Source: Sphingosinicella humi (GTDB lineage: Bacteria > Pseudomonadota > Alphaproteobacteria > Sphingomonadales > Sphingomonadaceae). Taken from it: a stretch of 64,000 nucleotides of DNA. Below the pieces are notes generated by a model. The model was not told the DNA's origin. It ran no database searches and saw only the letters and a list, made by a program, of their open reading frames with translations. How positions within the stretch are numbered: position 1 is the stretch's first letter; each line of letters begins with the position of its first letter. Positions 47,556 through 59,575 of this stretch are shown here, one piece after another. The stretch spans positions 372,001 through 436,000 of the forward strand of contig NZ_QFFF01000001.1 in the NCBI RefSeq assembly GCF_003129465.1, given 5' to 3'. Position numbers and translations under genes: made by a program.

Positions 47556-48248
47556 CTATTCAACCTTCGGCGGAAGAGGAAACAAGGTCAGGAACTGTTC
47601 CGCCAAGGCACGATCACCTTCTAGGGTAAGCGCGCCCGCCTCGGCCAGGGCGTCGAGAGGCTGCTTGCCGTAGACCGCCGCCGCCAGCGCCGCCGCCGTG
47701 CCGGTGAAGATGAAGTCGGCACCTTCGGGGTCTCCCCGCGCGATCTCCAGCCGGCCGTCCGCCATGCTTCCGCGAAACGCCTCCCTGCCGAGGCGCAGGC
47801 CGAGACTGGCCCGCATGCCCTTCGCCCGCTCGCCATCGAACATGGTGCGGAAACTGAGGATGATCGAAGTGGAGCTGATCGGCAGCGTCGGGTCGTGCGC
47901 GGGAGAGCGGGCCGCCCAGCGGCCGAGGCTCTGCACGATAGGTTCGGCCTCATAGCCCCATTGGGTCAGCTCATAGACCTGAGTCGAGGCGGGCGGAGGC
48001 AGCTTCCTGCGGACCAAAAGGCCGGACGCTTCCAGCCCTTCCAGCCGCTGGGTCAGCACATTGGCGCTGATTCCGGGCAGATCGGCGCGAAGGTCTGAGA
48101 AGCGCTTCGGTCCGAGCATAAGCTCCCTCAATACCAGCAGGGCCCAGCGCTCGCCGACCAGATCGAGCGCATGGGCGGTGCCGCAGGCGTCGTCATATCG
48201 CCTTTTCGAGGCGGCCTGGCGCTCGGTAGTTACTTTTTGTGACTTCAT
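47556..48248 (-). CDS. HxlR family transcriptional regulator with C-terminal SCP2-like domain
   Basis: This 230-residue protein has an HxlR winged helix (CGTAHALDLVGERWALLVLRELMLGPKRFSDLRADLPGIS). In its C-terminal half is an SCP2/lipid-binding-like domain (FIFTGTAAALAAAVYGKQPLDALAEAGALTLEGD). This two-domain form is common among actinobacterial and sphingomonad regulators of detoxification genes. It is divergent from the VOC/SRPBCC/GST operon, from which a gap of 60 bases with a pseudo-palindrome separates it; control of that operon is inferred. Start at ATG 48248. Confidence 0.88.
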   Translation of the reverse strand: MKSQKVTTERQAASKRRYDDACGTAHALDLVGERWALLVLRELMLGPKRFSDLRADLPGISANVLTQRLEGLEASGLLVRRKLPPPASTQVYELTQWGYEAEPIVQSLGRWAARSPAHDPTLPISSTSIILSFRTMFDGERAKGMRASLGLRLGREAFRGSMADGRLEIARGDPEGADFIFTGTAAALAAAVYGKQPLDALAEAGALTLEGDRALAEQFLTLFPLPPKVE

Positions 48249-48265
48249 AGTTGCTTTTACTAACT
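48249..48265. promoter_or_regulatory. HxlR operator candidate in the divergent gap
   Basis: AGTTGCTTTTACTAACT begins one base upstream of the regulator start codon. It is an imperfect inverted repeat with AGTT and AACT ends around a T-rich core. A related sequence, TAGTTACTTTTTGTGACTT, lies just inside the regulator gene (48227-48245). Two tandem sites suggest autoregulation along with control of the operon. Confidence 0.5.
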
Positions 48266-48308
48266 CACGTCGGCATGAATGGCAATCAGCGATTCGGAGG
48301 AGACGACC

Positions 48309-48737
48309 ATGTCCAAGCTGATCTTCGTGAACCTGCCGGTGACCGACCTTCAACGCTCCGTTGCCTTCTATGAGGCCATCGGGGCCGAGAAAAACCCGCA
48401 ATTTTCGGACGATACGGCGGCATGCATGGTCCTTTCCGAAACCATTCACGTGATGCTGCTGACCCATGATAAGTTCCGGCAGTTCACGCCCAAGCGCATC
48501 GCCGACGCGCACGCCACGAGCGAAGTGATGGTCGCCCTTTCGGAGGACAACCGGGAAGGCGTCGACCGCATCACCGAGAAGGCGCTGGCGGCCGGCGGCC
48601 GCGAGGCGCGCGACGCCGAGGATCTCGGCTTCATGTACAGCCGCCCGTTTGAGGATCCGGATGGCCATATCTGGGAGCCGTTCTTCATGGACATGGAGGC
48701 CGCGACGGCCGCGATGTCCCAGCCGGCCGAGGCCTGA
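48309..48737 (+). CDS. VOC family protein (glyoxalase-like), first gene of operon
   Basis: This 142-residue VOC-fold protein opens SKLIFVNLPVTDLQRSVAFYEAIGAEKN and ends SRPFEDPDGHIWEPFFMDM, with the usual metal positions partly changed (Asn near the first ligand site). Proteins of this group are called lactoylglutathione-lyase-like, but many have no known reaction. GGAGGAGACGACC precedes ATG 48309. It heads seven co-directional genes with gaps of 3-61 bases, divergent from HxlR. Confidence 0.87.
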   Translation: MSKLIFVNLPVTDLQRSVAFYEAIGAEKNPQFSDDTAACMVLSETIHVMLLTHDKFRQFTPKRIADAHATSEVMVALSEDNREGVDRITEKALAAGGREARDAEDLGFMYSRPFEDPDGHIWEPFFMDMEAATAAMSQPAEA

Positions 48738-48760
48738 ACGCGAAGACAAGGAGTGTCGAA

Positions 48761-49258
48761 ATGGCCGCACAGCATGAACTGTCTATTACCCGCTATATCG
48801 ATGCGCGCCCCGAGGCCGTCTATCGCGTCTGGACGGAGCGCACCGGCGAATGGTGGTGCCCCAAGCCCTGGACGACACCCGTGGTCGAGTGGGACCTGAA
48901 GGCTGGCGGACGCGCTTTCACGGTGATGCGGTCGCCCGAGGGCGAGGATATGCCCCACGACGGTATCTTCCTGGAAGTGGTGCCGAACGAGAAGGTCGTC
49001 TTCACCAACGCCTTCACCGCCGGCTGGAATCCGCAGGTGCTAAGCGGCGACGGCTGCGACTTCGGCATGGTCGCGATCGTCACCTTCGAGGCCGAGGGCG
49101 AAGGCACCCGCTACACCGCCCGCGTCCGCCACTGGGACGAGGAAGCGCTGAAGGCGCATGAGGCGATGGGTTTCCACGAAGGCTGGGGGCAGGTCGCCAA
49201 CCAGCTCGCCGAGCTGGCCGAAGCCGGGGAAACGACCACGGACCGAGCGGCGGCCTGA
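48761..49258 (+). CDS. SRPBCC (AHSA1/START-like) domain protein
   Basis: The 165-residue protein has the START/Bet v1 fold with a hydrophobic ligand pocket. It opens ELSITRYIDARPEAVYRVWTER, with GRAFTVMRSPEGEDMPHDGIF and FHEGWGQVANQLAELAE at the end, the standard AHSA1-type layout. The ligand is not known. It is the second gene of the HxlR-linked operon, and partner proteins of this kind often bind substrates for the VOC and GST enzymes beside them. AAGGAG lies upstream of the ATG. Confidence 0.86.
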   Translation: MAAQHELSITRYIDARPEAVYRVWTERTGEWWCPKPWTTPVVEWDLKAGGRAFTVMRSPEGEDMPHDGIFLEVVPNEKVVFTNAFTAGWNPQVLSGDGCDFGMVAIVTFEAEGEGTRYTARVRHWDEEALKAHEAMGFHEGWGQVANQLAELAEAGETTTDRAAA

Positions 49259-49277
49259 GCCCCAGGAGGAGAGCATC

Positions 49278-49952
49278 ATGCCTGTCGACCCGAGCGCCGA
49301 GATCGAGATCACCGCCCTCAAATGGGTGCCTGAGATGGCCCATGGTCTGGTCCGCGACATCCGCGTCCGCTGGGCGCTCGAGGAGGCGGGCCTCAGCTAT
49401 CGCGAACGCCTGCTCGAATTCCTCGGCGAACGTTCGCCCGAGGATCTTGCCGAGCAGCCGTTCGGCCAGGTGCCGGCCTATAGGGAAGGCGACGTCCATC
49501 TGTTCGAGAGCGGCGCGATCGTGCTCCACATCGCCCAGAATTCGGACGCGCTGATGCCGTCCGACCCCGCCGGCCGCGCCCGCACGCTCGCCTGGGTGAT
49601 CGCCGCGATCGACAGCGTCGAGAAGCCGATCTGGAACCTCGTCGAGATCAACATCTCGGGCGGCTCCGAATGGGGCCGCCTGCGCCGCCCCGAAGTCGAG
49701 GACTCGATCCGGCGGCGGCTCGGCCAGATCTCCGACTGGCTCGGTGAGAGCGATTATCTGGAGGACCGCTTCACCGCCGGCGATCTGATGATGACGACGG
49801 TACTGCGCATCCTACGCCGCACCGACTTCGTCGCCGAATATCCCAATCTCGCCGCCTATCAGGCCCGCTGCGAGGCGCGGCCCGCCTTCGCTCGGGCGCT
49901 GGCGGCGCAGCTCGCTGCATTCAAGGAACATGAACCCGCGGAAGCGGCCTGA
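49278..49952 (+). CDS. glutathione S-transferase family protein
   Basis: This 224-residue GST has an N-terminal thioredoxin-like domain (ITALKWVPEMAHGLVRDIRVRWALEEAGLSYRER; FGQVPAYREGDVHLFESGAIVLHIA holds the cis-Pro and the ESGAI glutathione-binding loop). The helical C-terminal domain ends DRFTAGDLMMTTVLRIL. The N-terminal catalytic Ser/Cys/Tyr is not obvious. Start chosen at ATG 49278, after GGAGGAGAGC. It adds a glutathione-transfer step to the detoxification operon. Confidence 0.9.
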   Translation: MPVDPSAEIEITALKWVPEMAHGLVRDIRVRWALEEAGLSYRERLLEFLGERSPEDLAEQPFGQVPAYREGDVHLFESGAIVLHIAQNSDALMPSDPAGRARTLAWVIAAIDSVEKPIWNLVEINISGGSEWGRLRRPEVEDSIRRRLGQISDWLGESDYLEDRFTAGDLMMTTVLRILRRTDFVAEYPNLAAYQARCEARPAFARALAAQLAAFKEHEPAEAA

Positions 49953-49979
49953 ACGGCCGCGGCAAGAAGGAGAAGCAGC

Positions 49980-50732
49980 ATGACCTATGTGGAAGGATTT
50001 GTCTGCGCGGTCCCGAGCGCCAACAAGGAAGCCTATCGCCAGCATGCCGCCGATGCGGCGCCGCTGTTCAAGGCGTTCGGCGTGAGGCGCCACTTCGAAG
50101 CCTGGGGCGACGACGTGCCGGACGGCAAAGTGACCGACTTCAAGGGTTCGGTGCAGGCCAAGCCTGACGAGACCGTCGTCTTCGCCTGGTTCGAATATCC
50201 CGACAAGGCGACGCGCGACGCCGCCAACGAGAAAATGATGAGCGATCCGCGGATGAAGACGATGGGCGAGTCCATGCCATTCGACGGTCAGCGGATGATC
50301 TATGGGGGCTTCGACTCCTTCATCGATGAGTCCACCGGCGGACGCGGCGCTTATGTCGATGGCTTCGTGGCGCCGGTCCCGGAGGGCAACAAGCAGGCCT
50401 ATCGCGACATGGCCTCCAAAGCCGCGGCGAAGTTCAAGGAATGTGGCGCCGTGCGCGTGGTCGAAGCCTGGGGCGACGACGTGCCCGACGGCAAGGTGAC
50501 CGACTTCAAGCGCTCGGTGAAGGCCGAGCCGGGGGAGAATGTCGTCTTTTCCTGGATCGAATGGCCGGACAAGGAGACCCGCGACGCGGGCTGGAAGGCA
50601 ATGATGGAAGATCCCGACATGCAGCCGGACAAGGACAAGATGCCCTTCGACGGAATGCGCATGTTCTGGGGCGGCTTCAGGCCCGTGCTCGACACCGCCG
50701 CGGAGACAGTCCCGTCCCGCGAACCGGCCTGA
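49980..50732 (+). CDS. DUF1428 family protein with two fused domains
   Basis: This 250-residue protein contains two DUF1428 (YbaA-like) repeats in one chain. Residues about 1-112 begin TYVEGFVCAVPSANKEAY, and residues about 124-238 begin AYVDGFVAPVPEGNKQAY. Each has EAWGDDVPDGKVTDFK, VVF.W.E(Y/W)P and MPFDG(Q/M)RM. DUF1428 is normally a single-domain protein of about 115-120 residues, so this is an internal duplication. The fold is a dimeric alpha-beta barrel, and fusion could make a built-in dimer. Function unknown. Confidence 0.9.
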   Translation: MTYVEGFVCAVPSANKEAYRQHAADAAPLFKAFGVRRHFEAWGDDVPDGKVTDFKGSVQAKPDETVVFAWFEYPDKATRDAANEKMMSDPRMKTMGESMPFDGQRMIYGGFDSFIDESTGGRGAYVDGFVAPVPEGNKQAYRDMASKAAAKFKECGAVRVVEAWGDDVPDGKVTDFKRSVKAEPGENVVFSWIEWPDKETRDAGWKAMMEDPDMQPDKDKMPFDGMRMFWGGFRPVLDTAAETVPSREPA

Positions 50733-50793
50733 TTGGCCTTCAGGGAGGCCGCGCCGCGACCTCCCTCCTCTCTACCGATGAAAGGACTTGTCC

Positions 50794-51636
50794 ATGTCCG
50801 ACCACGCTCCAACAGCCGAACGTTCGTCAACGCTCTCCGGAAGCGAGGAAGGCCGCAACCCGCATGGCAGCTTCATCTGGTATGAGCTGCTCACCAGCGA
50901 TCCCGACGCGGCTGCCGAGTTTTACGGCGAGGTCATCGGCTGGAACGCACGAAATGCGGGCCAGGCGGGCATGGACTACCGGCTGTTCTCGATGGACGGC
51001 ACCGATGTCGCCGGACTCATGAGATCGGAGGAAGGGATGCCTCCACCCGTCTGGCTCGGCTATATCGGCGTCAACGACGTCGACGCCGCGGCCGCCCGGA
51101 TCAGGGAGGCCGGCGGTTCGATCCACGTTCCGCCCACCGACATCCCCAACGTCGGGCGCTTCGCGATGGTGGCGGACCCGCAGGGCGTCGTCTTCTACGT
51201 CATGCGCGGGAATATGGATCAGGCGAGCACGGCCTTTGCAGCGCAAAGCCCCGGCCATTGCCGCTGGAACGAGCTCGTCGCCACCGACCAAGCCGCCGCG
51301 CTCGATTTCTACATCGACCAGTTCGGCTGGGAGAAGGGCGACGCCATGCCGATGCCTGTCCCGAGCGGCGCCGAGGGGGGCGAGGCCGGCGACTATCGCT
51401 TCATCAATCATCACGGCGAGATGATCGGGGCGATGATGAACAGCATGGGCGGCAAGCAGCGGCCGATGTGGAACTTCTATTTCGGCGTTCGGGACATCGA
51501 TAAGGCAACCGAGGCCGTCCGCGCCCATGGCGGCACCATCACCTTCGGCCCGCAGGAGATTCCGGGCGGCGAATATGCCGTCAACGCCATCGATCCGCAG
51601 GGTGCCGCCTTCGGTCTCGTCGGCCCCAGGAAATAA
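50794..51636 (+). CDS. two-domain VOC family protein
   Basis: This 280-residue protein carries two complete VOC domains: residues about 24-142 (FIWYELLTSDPDAAAEFYGEVIGW to VADPQGVVFYVMRG) and about 155-278 (HCRWNELVATDQAAALDFYIDQFGW to IDPQGAAFGLVG). Such double proteins are often called hydroxylase or glyoxalase-like. Start at ATG 50794, with AAAGGA seven bases upstream. It is the fifth gene of the HxlR-divergent operon. Confidence 0.88.
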   Translation: MSDHAPTAERSSTLSGSEEGRNPHGSFIWYELLTSDPDAAAEFYGEVIGWNARNAGQAGMDYRLFSMDGTDVAGLMRSEEGMPPPVWLGYIGVNDVDAAAARIREAGGSIHVPPTDIPNVGRFAMVADPQGVVFYVMRGNMDQASTAFAAQSPGHCRWNELVATDQAAALDFYIDQFGWEKGDAMPMPVPSGAEGGEAGDYRFINHHGEMIGAMMNSMGGKQRPMWNFYFGVRDIDKATEAVRAHGGTITFGPQEIPGGEYAVNAIDPQGAAFGLVGPRK

Positions 51637-51648
51637 GGAGAGCGAAGC

Positions 51649-52161
51649 ATGGCCACCAAGACTGACAACAAACTCGTCACTTGCCTGTGGTTCGACCATG
51701 GCGAGGCGCGCAAGGCGGCGGAGTTCTACGCCGCCACCTTTCCCGACAGCCATGTCGGGCCAGCCATGACCGCCGGTGCCGACTATCCCGGCGGCCATCG
51801 GGGCACTGAGCTGACCGTCGAGTTCACCGTCCTCGGCCGGGCCTTCGTCGGCCTCAACGGCGGCCCCAACTTCAAGCCCAACGAGGCGATCAGCTTTCAG
51901 GTCTACACCGACGACCAGGAGGAGACCGATCGATATTGGAACGCGATCGTCTCCAATGGCGGGCAGGAGAGCGAATGCAGCTGGTGCAAGGATCGCTGGG
52001 GCTTTTCCTGGCAGATCGTCCCGCGCGTGCTGATGGAAGGCATGACCCATCCCGATCCAGCCGTCGCGAAACGCGTGATGGAAGCGATGATGACCATGCG
52101 CAAGATCGACATCGCCACCATCGAGGCGGCGATCGCCGGCAAAGAGACGGCGGACGCCTGA
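51649..52161 (+). CDS. PhnB-like VOC protein (3-demethylubiquinone-9 methyltransferase domain)
   Basis: This 170-residue protein has the PhnB/VOC form: [26 protein letters not shown] near the start, [26 protein letters not shown] and a tail [16 protein letters not shown]. The name in databases is inherited from sequence similarity; methyltransferase activity is not shown for this group. It lies 12 bases after the double-VOC gene and three bases before DUF899, so transcription is shared. Confidence 0.86.
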
Positions 52162-52164
52162 GCC

Positions 52165-52896
52165 ATGGCGAGCGGCTTCGCGCATATGGCTTTCCCCAAC
52201 GAAAGCCCTGCCTATCGGGAAGCGCGCAACCAACTGCTCGGGGCCGAGATCGCGCTTCGCCGCCAAACCGAAGCCGTGGCCGAGATGCGCCGCGCGCTTC
52301 CGCCGGGCGGCGAAGTGCCCGAGGATTATGTCTTCGAGCGGATAGGCGCCGATTTCCGGCCGGAGATGGTGAAGCTCTCCGAGCTGTTCGGCGAGCATTC
52401 GACGCTGCTCCTCTACAGCTACATGTTCGGCCCCGAGCGCGATGCGCCCTGCCCCGGCTGCACGCATCTGCTCGACTGCATCGACGGCGCCGCCCGACAT
52501 GTGCCGCAGCGCGCGGCGCTCTATGCGGTCGCCAAATCGCCGATCGCGCGGCTCGCCGCCTGGGCTCATGATCGCGGCTGGAACCACCTGAAGCTGCTGT
52601 CCACGGCGGGCAACGAATACGACGCCCATTATTACGGCGACACCGGCGCGCTGACGCCTGCGATGCGCGCCGAACGGGGCTACAAAGACGGCGAGGTCTG
52701 GGATGAACCGATGCTCAACGTCTTCGTCCGCGACGGCGGCACGATCCGCCATTTCTGGGGCAGCGAACTGGTCTTCGCTCCCGACGATCCCGGCCAGGAT
52801 CATCGCGGGCTGGATTTCATGGACCCCGTCTGGGGCATGCTCGACACGACGCCCGAAGGGCGCGGGAAGGAGTTCTTCCCGAAGGTGAACTACTGA
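52165..52896 (+). CDS. DUF899 family (thioredoxin-like) protein
   Basis: This 243-residue protein matches DUF899: EAVAEMRRALPPGGEVPEDYVFERI, LSELFGEHSTLLLYSYMFGPERDAPCPGCTHLLDCIDGAARHV, HLKLLSTAGNEYDAHYY and MLNVFVRDGGTIRHFWGSEL. The CPGC motif is a thioredoxin-like pair in this family, so a redox role is plausible but unproven. It is the last gene of the operon. Confidence 0.9.
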   Translation: MASGFAHMAFPNESPAYREARNQLLGAEIALRRQTEAVAEMRRALPPGGEVPEDYVFERIGADFRPEMVKLSELFGEHSTLLLYSYMFGPERDAPCPGCTHLLDCIDGAARHVPQRAALYAVAKSPIARLAAWAHDRGWNHLKLLSTAGNEYDAHYYGDTGALTPAMRAERGYKDGEVWDEPMLNVFVRDGGTIRHFWGSELVFAPDDPGQDHRGLDFMDPVWGMLDTTPEGRGKEFFPKVNY

Positions 52897-53002
52897 TTTT
52901 CAAGAAGCGCGCGCGGCGGAGACAATGCCGCCAATGAAGCGCGTCGATATCGCCGCCGCCGAACGCGCGGCGGAGGGCGAGGCAGTGGCCTGAACCGTCG
53001 CC

Positions 53003-53078
53003 GTCATTGCGAGCAGAGCGAAGGAATCCAGCCGCGGCGCAGGCTGGATTGCCGCGTCGCTCCACTCCTCGCGATGAC
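53003..53078. repeat. REP-like intergenic palindrome
   Basis: A long imperfect inverted repeat runs from GTCATTGCGAGCAGAGCG with AATCCAG to the complementary CTGGATT and CGCGATGAC, with a GC-rich centre. This form of element recurs in alphaproteobacterial intergenic DNA. It lies between convergent genes (DUF899 and the aminotransferase). Confidence 0.8.
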
Positions 53079-53098
53079 CGAACACGGGTTATCCGGTT

Positions 53099-54283
53099 TT
53101 AGCGACTCACCGTTGCCAGTGCCCTCGCCAGCCGCTCGGGGTCGCCGGTCTTGAGGCCGGCGATGTTGATGCGGCCGGACTGGGGCATGTGGATGGCATG
53201 GTCCCGGCCCAGCGTCTCGGTCTGCTCGGCGCTGAGCGGGAGCATCGAGAAGATCCCGCGCTGCGACTGGACATGGCGGAGCATCGGCACCTCGCCCGAG
53301 AAGCCCCCCAGTTCGCTCCTGAGCTCCAGCAGGCGGCGGCGCATGGCGTCAAGCTCCTCCTCCCACAAAGCCCGCAGGCGCGGATCGCGGAGGATATGCG
53401 CGACCGTTCCCGCGCCATGAGCGGGCGGCATGGAGACGAGCGAGCGGCTGATCCGCTCCATCTGCCCCTGCACCCGGCGCCGCTCGTCCGCATTGGCGCA
53501 CAGCGCGAAGAGAATGCCCACCCGCTCGCGATAGAGGCCGAACGCCTTGGAGCAGGAGACGGCGATGAAGGCGCGCGGCACGGTCGCGGCGGATTCGCGG
53601 ATGATGTCGAGATCCTCCTCCAGCCCGTCGCCGAGTCCGTAATAGGCGGCGTCGATGATCGGAACGGCGCCGCGTTCGACGAGCATCGCGAGAAGCGCGC
53701 GTCGCTCGTCGCGACTGAGGTCGGCGCCGGTGGGGTTGTGACAGGGGCCGTGAAAGACGAACAGGTCCCCGGGACGCGCGCTGGTCGCCGCTTCCGTGAT
53801 CGCCTCGAGATTGAGGGCCTGGCGGTCGGTGTCGAAGTAACGATGCGTGACCAGCTCGAGCTCCGCCGCGCCGGCGAGGGTGGCGTGGTTGGGCCAGCTC
53901 GGCAGGCCGAGGTGCATCCGCGCGGACGGGTCGGCGGCGAAAGCGGAGTCGACGGCGATGCGGAGCGCGCCGGTGCCGCCCGTGCCCTGGATGGCGGCGA
54001 TGCGGCCGTCCCGGACGGCGGGATGGTCGGCGCCGAAAACCAGGTTCGTCATGCCCGAGACGAAGGCGTCGTCGCCGTGCAGGGCCTGATAGGCCTTGCT
54101 GTCCTCCTCGCCGAGGATCGCCTCCTCGGCCGCCTTCACCGCCCGCATGATCGGTGAGTGGCCGGCGGCGTCGCGATAGACGCCGACGCCGAGATCGATC
54201 TTCTCCGGCCTCGGATCGGCGCGGAAGCGGGCCATGACGGCGTGGAGCGGATCGGCAAGCGGTTCGGGAAATCGATCGAACAT
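53099..54283 (-). CDS. aromatic amino acid aminotransferase (class I, PLP-dependent)
   Basis: This 394-residue enzyme of the AspC/TyrB family transfers amino groups between aspartate or aromatic amino acids and 2-oxoglutarate. Motifs are DLGVGVYRD, HGPCHNPTGADLS, IIDAAYYGLGDGLEEDL and the PLP lysine in AVSCSKAFGLYRERVG. The closing INIAGLKTGDPERLARAL is typical. It points to aromatic amino-acid metabolism near hmgA, though 4 kb separates them. The ATG at 54283 begins MFDRFPEPLADPL. Confidence 0.93.
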   Translation of the reverse strand: MFDRFPEPLADPLHAVMARFRADPRPEKIDLGVGVYRDAAGHSPIMRAVKAAEEAILGEEDSKAYQALHGDDAFVSGMTNLVFGADHPAVRDGRIAAIQGTGGTGALRIAVDSAFAADPSARMHLGLPSWPNHATLAGAAELELVTHRYFDTDRQALNLEAITEAATSARPGDLFVFHGPCHNPTGADLSRDERRALLAMLVERGAVPIIDAAYYGLGDGLEEDLDIIRESAATVPRAFIAVSCSKAFGLYRERVGILFALCANADERRRVQGQMERISRSLVSMPPAHGAGTVAHILRDPRLRALWEEELDAMRRRLLELRSELGGFSGEVPMLRHVQSQRGIFSMLPLSAEQTETLGRDHAIHMPQSGRINIAGLKTGDPERLARALATVSR

Positions 54284-55807: not shown

Positions 55808-56650
55808 CTAACTGCCTAGCCGCTCCGCGTGCCAGCGGAGGTGATCCTCCATGAAGGTCGCGATGAAATAATAGCTGTGGTCGTAGCCCTCCTGCATCCG
55901 CAGGGTGAGCGGGATGCCGGCCTTTTCGCAGGCGTCAGCGAGGAGCTCCGGCCTTAGCTGCTCCGCCAGGAAGTTGTCGGCCATGCCCTGGTCGACGAGC
56001 AGTTCGGGCACCCGCGCCCCGTCCTCGATCAGAGCGGTGGCGTCGTAGCGGCGCCAGGCGGCACGATCGGCACCGATATAGCCGGTGAGCGCCTTCTCCC
56101 CCCACGGCACCCGCGCCGGAGCGACGATAGGGGCGAAGGCGGAGACGGATTTGAAGCGGTCCGGAGTCTTGAGCGCGAGCGTGAGCGCGCCATGGCCGCC
56201 CATCGAATGGCCGGTGATCGCCTGGCGCTCCATGTCAGCCGGGAAATGCTCGGCGATCAGCTCCGACAGCTCGCGCGTGATGTAGCTTTCCATGCGGAAA
56301 TGCTTCGACCAGGGCGCTTCGGTCGCATCGACATAGAAGCCGGCGCCCTTGCCGAAATCATAGGCTTCGTCATCCGCCACATCGTCGCCGCGCGGGCTGG
56401 TGTCCGGGGCGACGAAGATCAGGCCGAGCTCGGCGCAGGCCCGGCGATATTCGCCCTTCTCGGTCACGTTGGCGTGGGTGCAGGTGAGGCCGGAGAGATA
56501 CCAGACGACCGGCAGCTTCACGCCTTCGGCATGCGGCGGGACATAGACCGAGAAGACCATGTCCGTCCCGGTCTCGGCCGAGGCGTGCCGATACACGCCC
56601 TGCACGCCGCCGAAACACTTGTTGGTCGAGACGGTATCGAGCGCCATCAT
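55808..56650 (-). CDS. fghA: S-formylglutathione hydrolase
   Basis: This enzyme releases formate from S-formylglutathione, the last step of glutathione-dependent formaldehyde detoxification. The 280-residue alpha/beta hydrolase has PVVWYLSGLTCTHANVTEKG, nucleophile Ser149 in GHSMGGHGAL, and the late YDHSYYFI with the catalytic histidine. The match to esterase-D/FrmB-type enzymes runs the whole length. Its start codon overlaps the VOC gene's stop by four bases, in an operon with the formaldehyde dehydrogenase. Confidence 0.95.
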   Translation of the reverse strand: MMALDTVSTNKCFGGVQGVYRHASAETGTDMVFSVYVPPHAEGVKLPVVWYLSGLTCTHANVTEKGEYRRACAELGLIFVAPDTSPRGDDVADDEAYDFGKGAGFYVDATEAPWSKHFRMESYITRELSELIAEHFPADMERQAITGHSMGGHGALTLALKTPDRFKSVSAFAPIVAPARVPWGEKALTGYIGADRAAWRRYDATALIEDGARVPELLVDQGMADNFLAEQLRPELLADACEKAGIPLTLRMQEGYDHSYYFIATFMEDHLRWHAERLGS

Positions 56651-57030
56651 TGCGCCGGTCTATAGAGGCCGCAAAGCTTGTTTCCGGCCGGGTCGCGCAG
56701 ATAGGCGAGGTAGAGCTTGCCGAAGCCGCCCTCGCGATATCCCGGCGGATCCTCGCAGGTCGTTCCGCCATGGGCGAGGCCGGCGGCGTGCCAGGCATCG
56801 ACCTCTTCGGGGGACGCGCCCGCAAAGCCGACCGTCCCGCCATTGGCATGGCAGGCGGCCTCTCCGTTGAGTGGCTTGCTGAGCATGAACAGCCCGCCAT
56901 TGTGCATATAGAACACGCGGCCCTTGTCATCGATGCGGCCTGGCTTCGAGCCGAGCGCTCCGAGCACCGCATCGTAGAAGGTCTTCGACTTCTCGACGTC
57001 GTTGGCGCCGAGCATCACGTGTGAAAACAT
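56647..57030 (-). CDS. VOC family protein in formaldehyde operon
   Basis: The 127-residue protein has a single VOC domain: FSHVMLGANDVEKSKTFYDAVLGALG, FYMHNGGLFMLSKPLNGEAA and LAYLRDPAGNKLCGLYRPA. It lies between the S-(hydroxymethyl)glutathione dehydrogenase (26 bases upstream) and S-formylglutathione hydrolase (four-base overlap). A helper or lyase role in glutathione-adduct handling is inferred. GGGAGAGGAAAGC precedes the ATG at 57030. Confidence 0.88.
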   Translation of the reverse strand: MFSHVMLGANDVEKSKTFYDAVLGALGSKPGRIDDKGRVFYMHNGGLFMLSKPLNGEAACHANGGTVGFAGASPEEVDAWHAAGLAHGGTTCEDPPGYREGGFGKLYLAYLRDPAGNKLCGLYRPAQ

Positions 57031-57056
57031 GCTTTCCTCTCCCTGTGGCGATGACT

Positions 57057-58169
<1,113 letters not shown>

Positions 58170-58285: not shown

Positions 58286-59575
58286 CTAGGGCAGCTTCGC
58301 CTTCGGGAAGCCGCCCCAGGCTTGGTCGTAATCGAGCTGCATCTGCTCGCAGTTGAGGGCGAACTCCGTGGGCCGGAAAGGCCAGCAGCTTTCGACCATG
58401 AAGGCCATCGTGCCTTCGATCCTGTGGGGCTTCAGCTCCGCCTCGCTCGCGCCCTTCCAGCTGGCGACGTCGGGGCCGTGGCCGGACATCATATTGTGCA
58501 GGGACATGCCGCCCGGTGCAAAGCCCTCCGCCTTGGCGTCATAGGCGCCGTGGATCAGGCCCATGCACTCGCTCATCACGTTGCGGTGGAACCAGGGCGG
58601 GCGGAACGTGTCCTCGGCGACCATCCAGCGCGGCGGGAAGATAACGAAATCGGCATTGGCTCGCCCGGGCACGTCGGACGGCGAGGTGAGGACGGTGAAG
58701 ATCGACGGGTCGGGATGGTCGAAGCTGACCGTGCCGATCGTGTTGAAGCGCGAGAGATCGTATTTCCAGGGGGCGAGATTGCCGTGCCAGGCGACCACGT
58801 CGAGGGGCGAATGATCGAGCGTCGTCGTCCAGAGCGAGCCCAGATATTTCTGCACAAGCTCGAATCCGCCGTCCCGGTCCTCATAGGCGGCGACCGGCGT
58901 CTCGAAATCGCGAGCGTTGGCGAGGCCGTTGGAGCCGATCGGCCCCAGCTCCGGAAGGCGGAAGAGGCTGCCATGATTTTCGGCGACATAGCCCCTCGCC
59001 TCCCCGTCCGGCAGCAGCGCGCGGAAGCGGACGCCGCGAGGGACGAGCGCGATCTCGCCCGGCGCCACGTCGATGCGGCCGAGCTCCGTCAGAAGGGCAA
59101 GGCGGCCCATCTGCGGGATGAACAGCAGCTCCCCGTCGGCGTCGACGAAGAAGCGGTCCTCCATGTCGCGATTGGCGCGGTAGACGTGGACGGCCACCCC
59201 CTCCAACTCGGCGGGATCGCGGTTTGCGACCATGGTCACCAGGCCGTCGATCAGGTCCGTCGGGCCGTCCGGCATGGGGAGCGGGTCCCAACGCAGGCGG
59301 TTGGGCGCGAGCGGCTCGTTCGCGGTGCCGGGCGCGAAGAGCTTGGCCCCTTGGTAGCGGCCATAGGGCGGATGCTCGGCGCTGGGACGCATCCGATAGA
59401 GCCAGGAGCGGCGGTTCTCGTGGCGGGGCGCCGTAAAGGCAGTGCCGGACAGCTGCTCGGCGTAGAGGCCGTGCGCCGGCTTCTGCGGCGAATTGCGCCC
59501 TTGTGGCAATGCACCCGGCACCGCCTCGGTCGCGAAATGGCTGCCAAAGCCGCTCATGTAGCCCTTAATGGTCAC
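58286..59575 (-). CDS. hmgA: homogentisate 1,2-dioxygenase
   Basis: This non-haem iron enzyme opens the ring of homogentisate in tyrosine and phenylalanine breakdown. The 429-residue protein has [13 protein letters not shown] near the start, [12 protein letters not shown], and the iron-site region [31 protein letters not shown] to [12 protein letters not shown] (His and Glu ligands). Start codon is GTG at 59575; an ATG six codons later is an alternative. No maleylacetoacetate isomerase or fumarylacetoacetase follows in the window. Confidence 0.94.

Follow-up and report, generated by a model that had tools for sequence, protein, structure and literature searches.

Organization of the operon

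Positions 47556-52896 of a 64,000-nt stretch of Sphingosinicella humi DNA (the window) hold a gene for an HxlR-type regulator on the minus strand and, divergent from it, seven structural genes on the plus strand, in the order VOC, AHSA1/SRPBCC, glutathione S-transferase (GST), tandem DUF1428, double VOC, PhnB-like VOC and DUF899. The region between regulator and row carries two palindromic operators and, at a nearly constant distance from them in related genomes, a GANTC pentamer, the sequence that is methylated by CcrM in Alphaproteobacteria. This operator-anchored GANTC is our main finding. The features are listed below.

47556-48248, minus strand: HxlR-type regulator, 230 residues, with an HxlR winged helix (about 20-114) and an SCP2-like C-terminal domain (about 118-227)
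48228-48244, unstranded: distal operator AGTTACTTTTTGTGACT, a 17-bp imperfect palindrome
48249-48265, unstranded: proximal operator AGTTGCTTTTACTAACT, a 17-bp imperfect palindrome
48251-48279, plus strand: putative operon promoter, -35 TTGCTT (48251-48256), 17-bp spacer, weak -10 CATGAA (48274-48279)
48290-48296, plus strand: CGATTCG, of the form YGAKTCK, with GANTC as GATTC at 48291-48295
48309-48737, plus strand: VOC/glyoxalase-like protein, 142 residues, Pfam Glyoxalase, PDB 4gym at 137.6 bits
48761-49258, plus strand: AHSA1-type SRPBCC protein, 165 residues, Pfam AHSA1 at 95.2 bits, PDB 1xfs at 99.6 bits
49278-49952, plus strand: GST, 224 residues, Pfam GST_N/GST_C, PDB 3lq7 and 2ycd at about 184 bits each
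49980-50732, plus strand: tandem DUF1428 protein with two YbaA-like domains, 250 residues, two Pfam stretches, PDB 2okq (YbaA) at 171.8 bits
50794-51636, plus strand: double VOC protein, Rv0577/KbpA-like, 280 residues, double Pfam Glyoxalase, PDB 3oxh (Rv0577) at 137.2 bits
51649-52161, plus strand: PhnB-like VOC protein (3-dmu-9_3-mt family), 170 residues, Pfam 155.3 bits, PDB 1u69 at 206.2 bits
52165-52896, plus strand: DUF899 protein, peroxiredoxin/thioredoxin-like, 243 residues, Pfam 163.9 bits, CPGC at C96-C99

All eight reading frames are open at these coordinates, the gene starts being the output of a simple in-house gene caller, and each of the eight proteins has at least one Pfam family above its curated cut-off. 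The gaps between the structural genes are 23, 19, 27, 61, 12 and 3 bp in order, and the seven genes are probably co-transcribed. A first-pass annotation of this DNA had seen a co-directional seven-gene row with a divergent HxlR gene, which the open frames, the small gaps and the Pfam matches confirm.

The regulator and its paired operators

The HxlR domain of the regulator scored 75.1 bits in Pfam against a cut-off of 20.8, and the C-terminal domain matched Alkyl_sulf_C/SCP2 above the Pfam cut-off. By sequence, the closest solved relative is YodB (5hs7). In an AlphaFold2 model (mean predicted local distance difference test score, pLDDT, 86.3), residues of about 20-120 match HxlR/DUF24 folds, including 7kd3 (Z 13.8, root mean square deviation (rmsd) 2.2, 101 aligned), 4a5n (Z 13.3) and 7bzg (Z 13.2), with YodB ranking first in Foldseek and HypR also matched, while residues of about 109-227 match the SCP2-like C-domain of an alkylsulfatase (2yhe, Z 14.2, rmsd 1.9, 109 aligned). 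The protein has a single cysteine, Cys22, which we take to be the equivalent of YodB Cys6 and which is invariant in all 22 aligned orthologues. Its start codon is uncertain, since the initial codons and the distal operator overlap.

In its HxlR winged helix and conserved N-terminal cysteine, the regulator is like YodB, CatR and HypR, the HxlR/DUF24 thiol switches of Bacillus subtilis, which locally repress detoxification genes including VOC dioxygenases. It differs from these regulons in the added SCP2-like C-terminal domain, in the paired AGTT-N9-AACT operators 21 bp apart, and in the GANTC site. The AGTT...AACT repeat seen in the first pass was borne out as two imperfect palindromes.

An HxlR-SCP2 orthologue was found at E <= 1e-20 in 177 of the 397 genomes of the family. 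The operator survey covered 37 hxlR-operon regions with the window included (first set) and 108 further loci (second set), the latter being drawn from the best-scoring matches listed from these 177 genomes: 29 were returned besides the window's own match, and 79 came from the next 94 listed in score order. The 15 matches left out lie in genomes already met by the search with DUF1428; four of these genomes (G068, G100, G129 and G142) do not appear among the first-set loci. An identical 60-mer is shared with first-stage loci by six of the 108.

Throughout the second set, a gene of the operon's families (the module) lies downstream of the operator (108/108). The proximal operator scored at least 21 in 107 of the 108 loci, and a second operator, at a low threshold of at least 17, was located 20-22 bp upstream of it in 105. 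The median top score was 27.3, compared with 18 in shuffled sequence, and in 8 loci the operator score was not above the best shuffled score of 23.5. Since the families of the operon also recur co-directionally in related genomes, this conservation indicates that the operon is more than a chance arrangement, and an operator pair conserved beside the regulator supports the HxlR control that the first pass had proposed. Scanning the whole genome with a 16-mer operator pattern, at most two mismatches allowed, returned the two known sites and one weaker site. The reversed control pattern gave 11 matches, so chance matches are common, a wider HxlR regulon is not indicated, and the regulator looks local. 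As to its surroundings, hxlR adjoins a gene of family c15, or the cut form c40, in twelve loci (L002, L010, L047, L057, L058, L059, L061, L062, L064, L065, L086 and L089), a family that looks CobS-like from a reading of its sequence alone; in the window genome it lies beside an SDR gene, so its position differs.

A GANTC site anchored to the operator

The earlier description of the promoter was right about the operator but missed the GANTC site. In the window, the distance from the proximal operator start to GANTC is 42 bp (+42). It is present in 35 of the 37 first-set regions, and within 45 nt past the operator it ranked first among all 256 patterns of the form XYNZW, occurring in 34 of 37 regions against 22 for the next best. 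Out of sample, that is, in the 101 loci that remain after removal of the six with an identical 60-mer and one without an operator, GANTC again ranked first of the 256 (97/101, next best 68). Within the interval +38 to +49 it occurs in 94 of these 101 loci, compared with 4.3% of letter-shuffled windows, and 92 have it there in the form YGAKTCK. In the whole second set, YGAKTCK lies in this interval in 96 of 108 loci and GANTC in 100, a count that includes L145, which has no operator (score 16.5). At least one locus with GANTC in the interval was found in 37 of the 42 sampled genera, where the genus labels were typed by hand and the genus of L125 was scored as a miss through a wrong operator choice. 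The wrong operator of L125 also stands in the counts on all 108 loci, whereas the out-of-sample counts use the corrected one.

The site keeps its distance to the operator and not to the gene. Over 31 first-set loci, the standard deviation of the GANTC-to-operator distance was 1.6 bp, versus 32 bp for the distance to the gene start; the six regions left out of these statistics are L021 and five Paracoccus loci in which the spacing differs. A part in the ribosome-binding region is ruled out by the varying distance to the gene start. Between genera, the spacers of the 58 loci whose site lies exactly at +42 are 27.5% identical, so the sequence around GANTC is saturated. In these loci the central base is G in 46% and T in 53%, the preceding base is C in 82% and T in 17%, and the following base is G in 100%.

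Promoters of non-module genes in the module-bearing loci provided the background, with GANTC in 67 of 333 overall and in 40 of the 140 divergent ones; 12 of 116 background GANTCs were in the sense YGAKTCK form. Sorted by gene family, hxlR promoters had GANTC in 34 of 37 cases and TetR promoters in 15 of 16, the latter mostly from the single genus Sphingopyxis with eight sites sharing position -7. The remaining non-module families ranged from 0 to 33%, except c14, which shares the TetR promoter (11/13), and c37, from six Brucella loci (6/6). For the module's own genes c4, c18 and c0, GANTC lay upstream in 62, 50 and 40%. A general trait of DUF1428 genes was also considered and is ruled out, because 13 of 15 hand-picked loci of other orders have no GANTC upstream.

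The putative operon promoter and a possible GcrA/CcrM link

A sigma-70 consensus scan of 48100-53110 found no promoter, and the putative hexamers were read from conservation instead. Columns +2 to +7 and parts of +25 to +30 are conserved, with the consensus TTGC..-17-CANNAN in the HxlR loci, and the putative -35 falls inside the proximal operator. The assignment is supported by five Sphingobium promoters without HxlR, all of which show TTGCGC-17-CATCAT with GANTC 7-9 bp past the -10. Because these HxlR-less loci keep GANTC together with the hexamers, they suggest that the site acts on the operon and not on hxlR. In all, seven module loci without an adjacent HxlR gene and operator have GANTC upstream (L022, L087, L091, L092, L093, L097 and L105); L022 and L093 are identical in sequence, which leaves six distinct loci. 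In Sphingopyxis, eight module promoters (L033, L034, L037, L039, L041, L042, L043 and L050) have TTGACA-17-TATGTN overlapping a TetR-type palindrome, with GATTC and the predicted start codon following directly, which suggests that their mRNAs are leaderless or have very short leaders.

The genome encodes GcrA (142.9 bits) and a RAMA domain of the CcrM type (62.2 bits) in a 394-residue frame. In front of the RAMA-domain gene itself (L115, at about 733 kb of C1), the 250 bp before its first start contain five GANTC sites. For Caulobacter, YGAKTCK has been put forward as a hypothetical extended motif of promoters that GcrA activates (PMC7987155). A review presents GcrA as an activator that works through domain 2 of sigma, and so on the reading of the -10, and that aids open-complex formation at methylated promoters (PMC7403470). 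The putative -10 of the operon is weak, which fits a need for help by GcrA. The operon is like the GcrA/CcrM regulon of Caulobacter and other Alphaproteobacteria in that a YGAKTCK-form GANTC is conserved across orthologues and both GcrA and a CcrM-type domain are encoded. It differs from the Caulobacter regulon in that it is a detoxification operon with its own repressor, in that the site lies apparently at or just past the transcription start, and in that binding of GcrA is putative. A tie of chemical-damage defence to GANTC and GcrA has a counterpart in Brucella, where the DNA-alkylation repair genes ogt and aidB are bound by GcrA (PMC6813329), though the genes differ, with DNA repair there and small-molecule detoxification here.

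Module content in related genomes

Module loci were fetched with the tandem DUF1428 protein as the query. Comparison with other genomes, which the first-pass annotation had put forward, showed constancy for one pair of genes and variation for the rest. In the 18 HxlR loci with long flanks, DUF1428 and double VOC are each present in all 18, followed by PhnB (14), GST (12), VOC (12), AHSA1 (6), a RibD_C protein (6) and DUF899 (2). Other recurrent partners, each domain-scanned in one representative, are DoxX, a GFA-type protein, RibD_C, DUF4287, DUF6958 and an alpha/beta hydrolase. HxlR is replaced by a TetR-type gene in 16 loci (one TetR representative was domain-scanned), and the gene caller probably fused the TetR genes of L038 and L063 with a neighbour. 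A further 11 loci have module genes and no regulator recognised by clustering, a group that is overstated because L008, L026, L040 and L110 have an operator-like site, with an HxlR match in L040 and L110.

Clusters such as ArsR-AHSA1 likewise hold AHSA1, VOC, DUF899 and DUF1428 side by side, and three Bosea loci carry an ArsR-type gene (one of them scanned); the regulators differ, and in these three YGAKTCK is absent within 200 bp upstream. Gene content is thus modular and the regulators are exchangeable, so the module is not one fixed pathway. Among the matches listed in the open-access literature, almost nothing was found on DUF1428, DUF899 or the HxlR-SCP2 regulator, and no listed title dealt with such an operon or with control of genes of this kind by GcrA. 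As candidate sources of a named function for the module, PMC3091736 and PMC4924334 do not, in their available parts, describe the operon.

The structural proteins and flanking sequences

The seven families had been called mostly unnamed. This stands for DUF899, for which the sequence search gave no solved relative, and not for the other six structural proteins, each of which has one. The DUF899 model (mean pLDDT 82.8) matches peroxiredoxins over residues 46-234, including AhpE 1xxu (Z 14.7, rmsd 2.7, 147 aligned), and C96 and C99 are invariant in 12 of 12 aligned sequences; the protein is accordingly predicted, on the model, to be a thioredoxin fold with active-site cysteines. The double VOC protein scored 113.7 bits against NCBIfam KbpA, under the cut-off of 250.

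One of the two closest solved relatives of the GST, besides 3lq7, is the Eta-class enzyme AtuGSTH1-1 (2ycd), which is a transferase on aryl halides and a very active peroxidase towards organic hydroperoxides (PMC3319563). Arg34 of AtuGSTH1-1 is matched by R26. The relation to the Eta class together with the peroxiredoxin-like DUF899 makes a role against electrophiles and hydroperoxides a reasonable inference. The detoxification theme of the first-pass annotation gains support from these two proteins and from the three VOC proteins.

No intrinsic terminator was found after DUF899 in 48100-53110. The 61-bp gap between DUF1428 and double VOC contains a GC-rich hairpin without a T-run (50742-50766), possibly an mRNA-processing or attenuation site. 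Shortly 3' of DUF899, at 53003-53079, lies a palindromic repeat like the repetitive extragenic palindromic (REP) elements (GTCATTGCGAGC...), and this 12-mer has 54 copies in the 3.03-Mb genome versus 1 for the reversed control, which marks it as a REP-like family of the genome. About 3 kb downstream of the operon, on the minus strand at 55808-58169, are the formaldehyde detoxification genes for S-formylglutathione hydrolase and S-(hydroxymethyl)glutathione dehydrogenase; the small protein encoded between the two looks VOC-like by eye and had no NCBIfam match at 1e-20. A homogentisate 1,2-dioxygenase gene follows at 58286-59575.

A proposed two-input promoter and its alternatives

Taken together, we propose, with a probability of about 0.6, an inducible operon for defence against electrophiles, organic hydroperoxides or both, whose two-input promoter is under HxlR repression and is linked to the methylation cycle of GcrA and CcrM. 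For the first input, whose operator is well supported, the HxlR-SCP2 repressor would bind the two palindromes over the operon -35 and would be released on modification of Cys22 or on binding of a hydrophobic ligand, with the SCP2-like domain as the probable lipid- or ligand-binding part. For the second input, the site is seen and the actor is putative: the YGAKTCK-form GANTC near the presumed transcription start would be methylated by CcrM, and GcrA bound to sigma-70 would read the methylated site and compensate the weak -10, giving a boost linked to replication or the cell cycle. The products, namely GST, DUF899, three VOC proteins and the AHSA1 and DUF1428 binding folds, would act as modular sinks and not as a linear pathway. 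It is about an even bet that the operon is a conserved member of the GcrA/CcrM circuit in Sphingomonadales, with electrophile defence gated by passage of the replication fork and a methylation link that is independent of the repressor.

Several observations weigh against this proposal. The available part of PMC7987155 reports no extended-motif preference at GcrA-activated promoters of Brevundimonas beyond a slight one for C, and in the Caulobacter class with activation at 40-60 min the GANTC sites sit between -10 and -35 (PMC4287350), unlike the site here, which is downstream of the putative -10. GANTC is lacking in L021 and L095 of the first set and from the interval +38 to +49 in 7 of the 101 out-of-sample loci. 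Among 44 module rows without a called divergent HxlR gene, 7 are cut by the locus end; of the 37 judgeable rows, 28 have GANTC and 9 have none within at most 220 bp (L017, L035, L036, L038, L044, L046, L055, L063 and L079), several of these being rows where the gap rule stopped inside the cluster. The 13 hand-picked DUF1428 loci of other orders with no GANTC within 200 bp include L055 and L079, which have the DUF1428-double VOC-PhnB row. Nor is GANTC rare between divergent genes: of 99 other such intergenic regions, 40-250 bp in length, 42 contain it, though some of the regions belong to other module promoters. On the enzymatic side, an alignment read by eye shows that of the Eta-GST residues Phe22, Ser25, Arg34 and Arg187 only Arg34 is kept, the other three being replaced. 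The site might, finally, serve the divergent hxlR promoter.

This last point leads to a rather unlikely explanation, namely that the element is functional but is bound by another factor or serves the hxlR promoter, with methylation and GcrA incidental. The putative divergent promoters overlap, the conserved CAA at +34 to +36 is TTG on the minus strand, and with this block as the -35 of a putative hxlR promoter, GANTC would sit at about -41 to -45. The flanking bases in the 58 loci, with G always after and C mostly before, are also more than CcrM needs. On the other hand, the element also occurs where both hxlR and the operator are missing, and its central base is about half G and half T while G, A, T and C are fixed, as the specificity of CcrM predicts; these four were fixed by the selection of the 58 loci, and GANTC ranks first also without that selection. 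We consider it quite unlikely that the operon is an ordinary HxlR detoxification operon in which GANTC is conserved just as a piece of the core promoter or of the first transcribed stretch, without a regulatory function. Such an account would draw on the position of the site near the presumed start and on the 20-29% of control promoters that have GANTC anyway, but it is at odds with a distance that varies to the gene start and not to the operator, and with the low frequencies in the non-module families other than c14 and c37. We know of no core-promoter element with the sequence GANTC or YGAKTCK.

As for the products, VOC-type proteins such as TnmS and CalC-type proteins are known to sequester drugs, and it is conceivable, if unlikely, that VOC, AHSA1 and DUF1428 here bind hydrophobic toxins such as natural-product antibiotics without turnover while HxlR detects these ligands through its SCP2 domain. 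The double VOC protein matches Rv0577 and other VOC 'Glyoxalase' structures and the C-terminal domain of the regulator matches SCP2-type folds, both in favour of sequestration, whereas GST and DUF899 look catalytic. Least probable to us, and very improbable, is the first-pass reading, in which the enzymes form a complete pathway for a single reactive compound. A GST, VOC proteins and a thioredoxin-like protein do stand in a single gene row beside one regulator, but the members are modular and partly dispensable, and the same families occur beside HxlR, TetR or ArsR-type regulators elsewhere.

Implications

GcrA and CcrM are known for the control of cell-division and DNA-repair genes. If the two-input reading is true, an operator-anchored GANTC in a detoxification promoter would extend GcrA/CcrM to chemical defence, and the sequence evidence suggests that such defence is tied to DNA replication. 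This would offer a rationale for a possible change in the electrophile tolerance of alphaproteobacteria through the cell cycle, in which a redox oscillation has been described for Caulobacter (PMC4470285). DUF1428, DUF899 and the HxlR-SCP2 regulator would gain a shared and testable context, with a single promoter, two kinds of short site and a single readout. With the conserved methylation-type site, a detoxification operon that looks ordinary becomes a case in which epigenetic control of chemical defence, perhaps linked to replication, can be tested.

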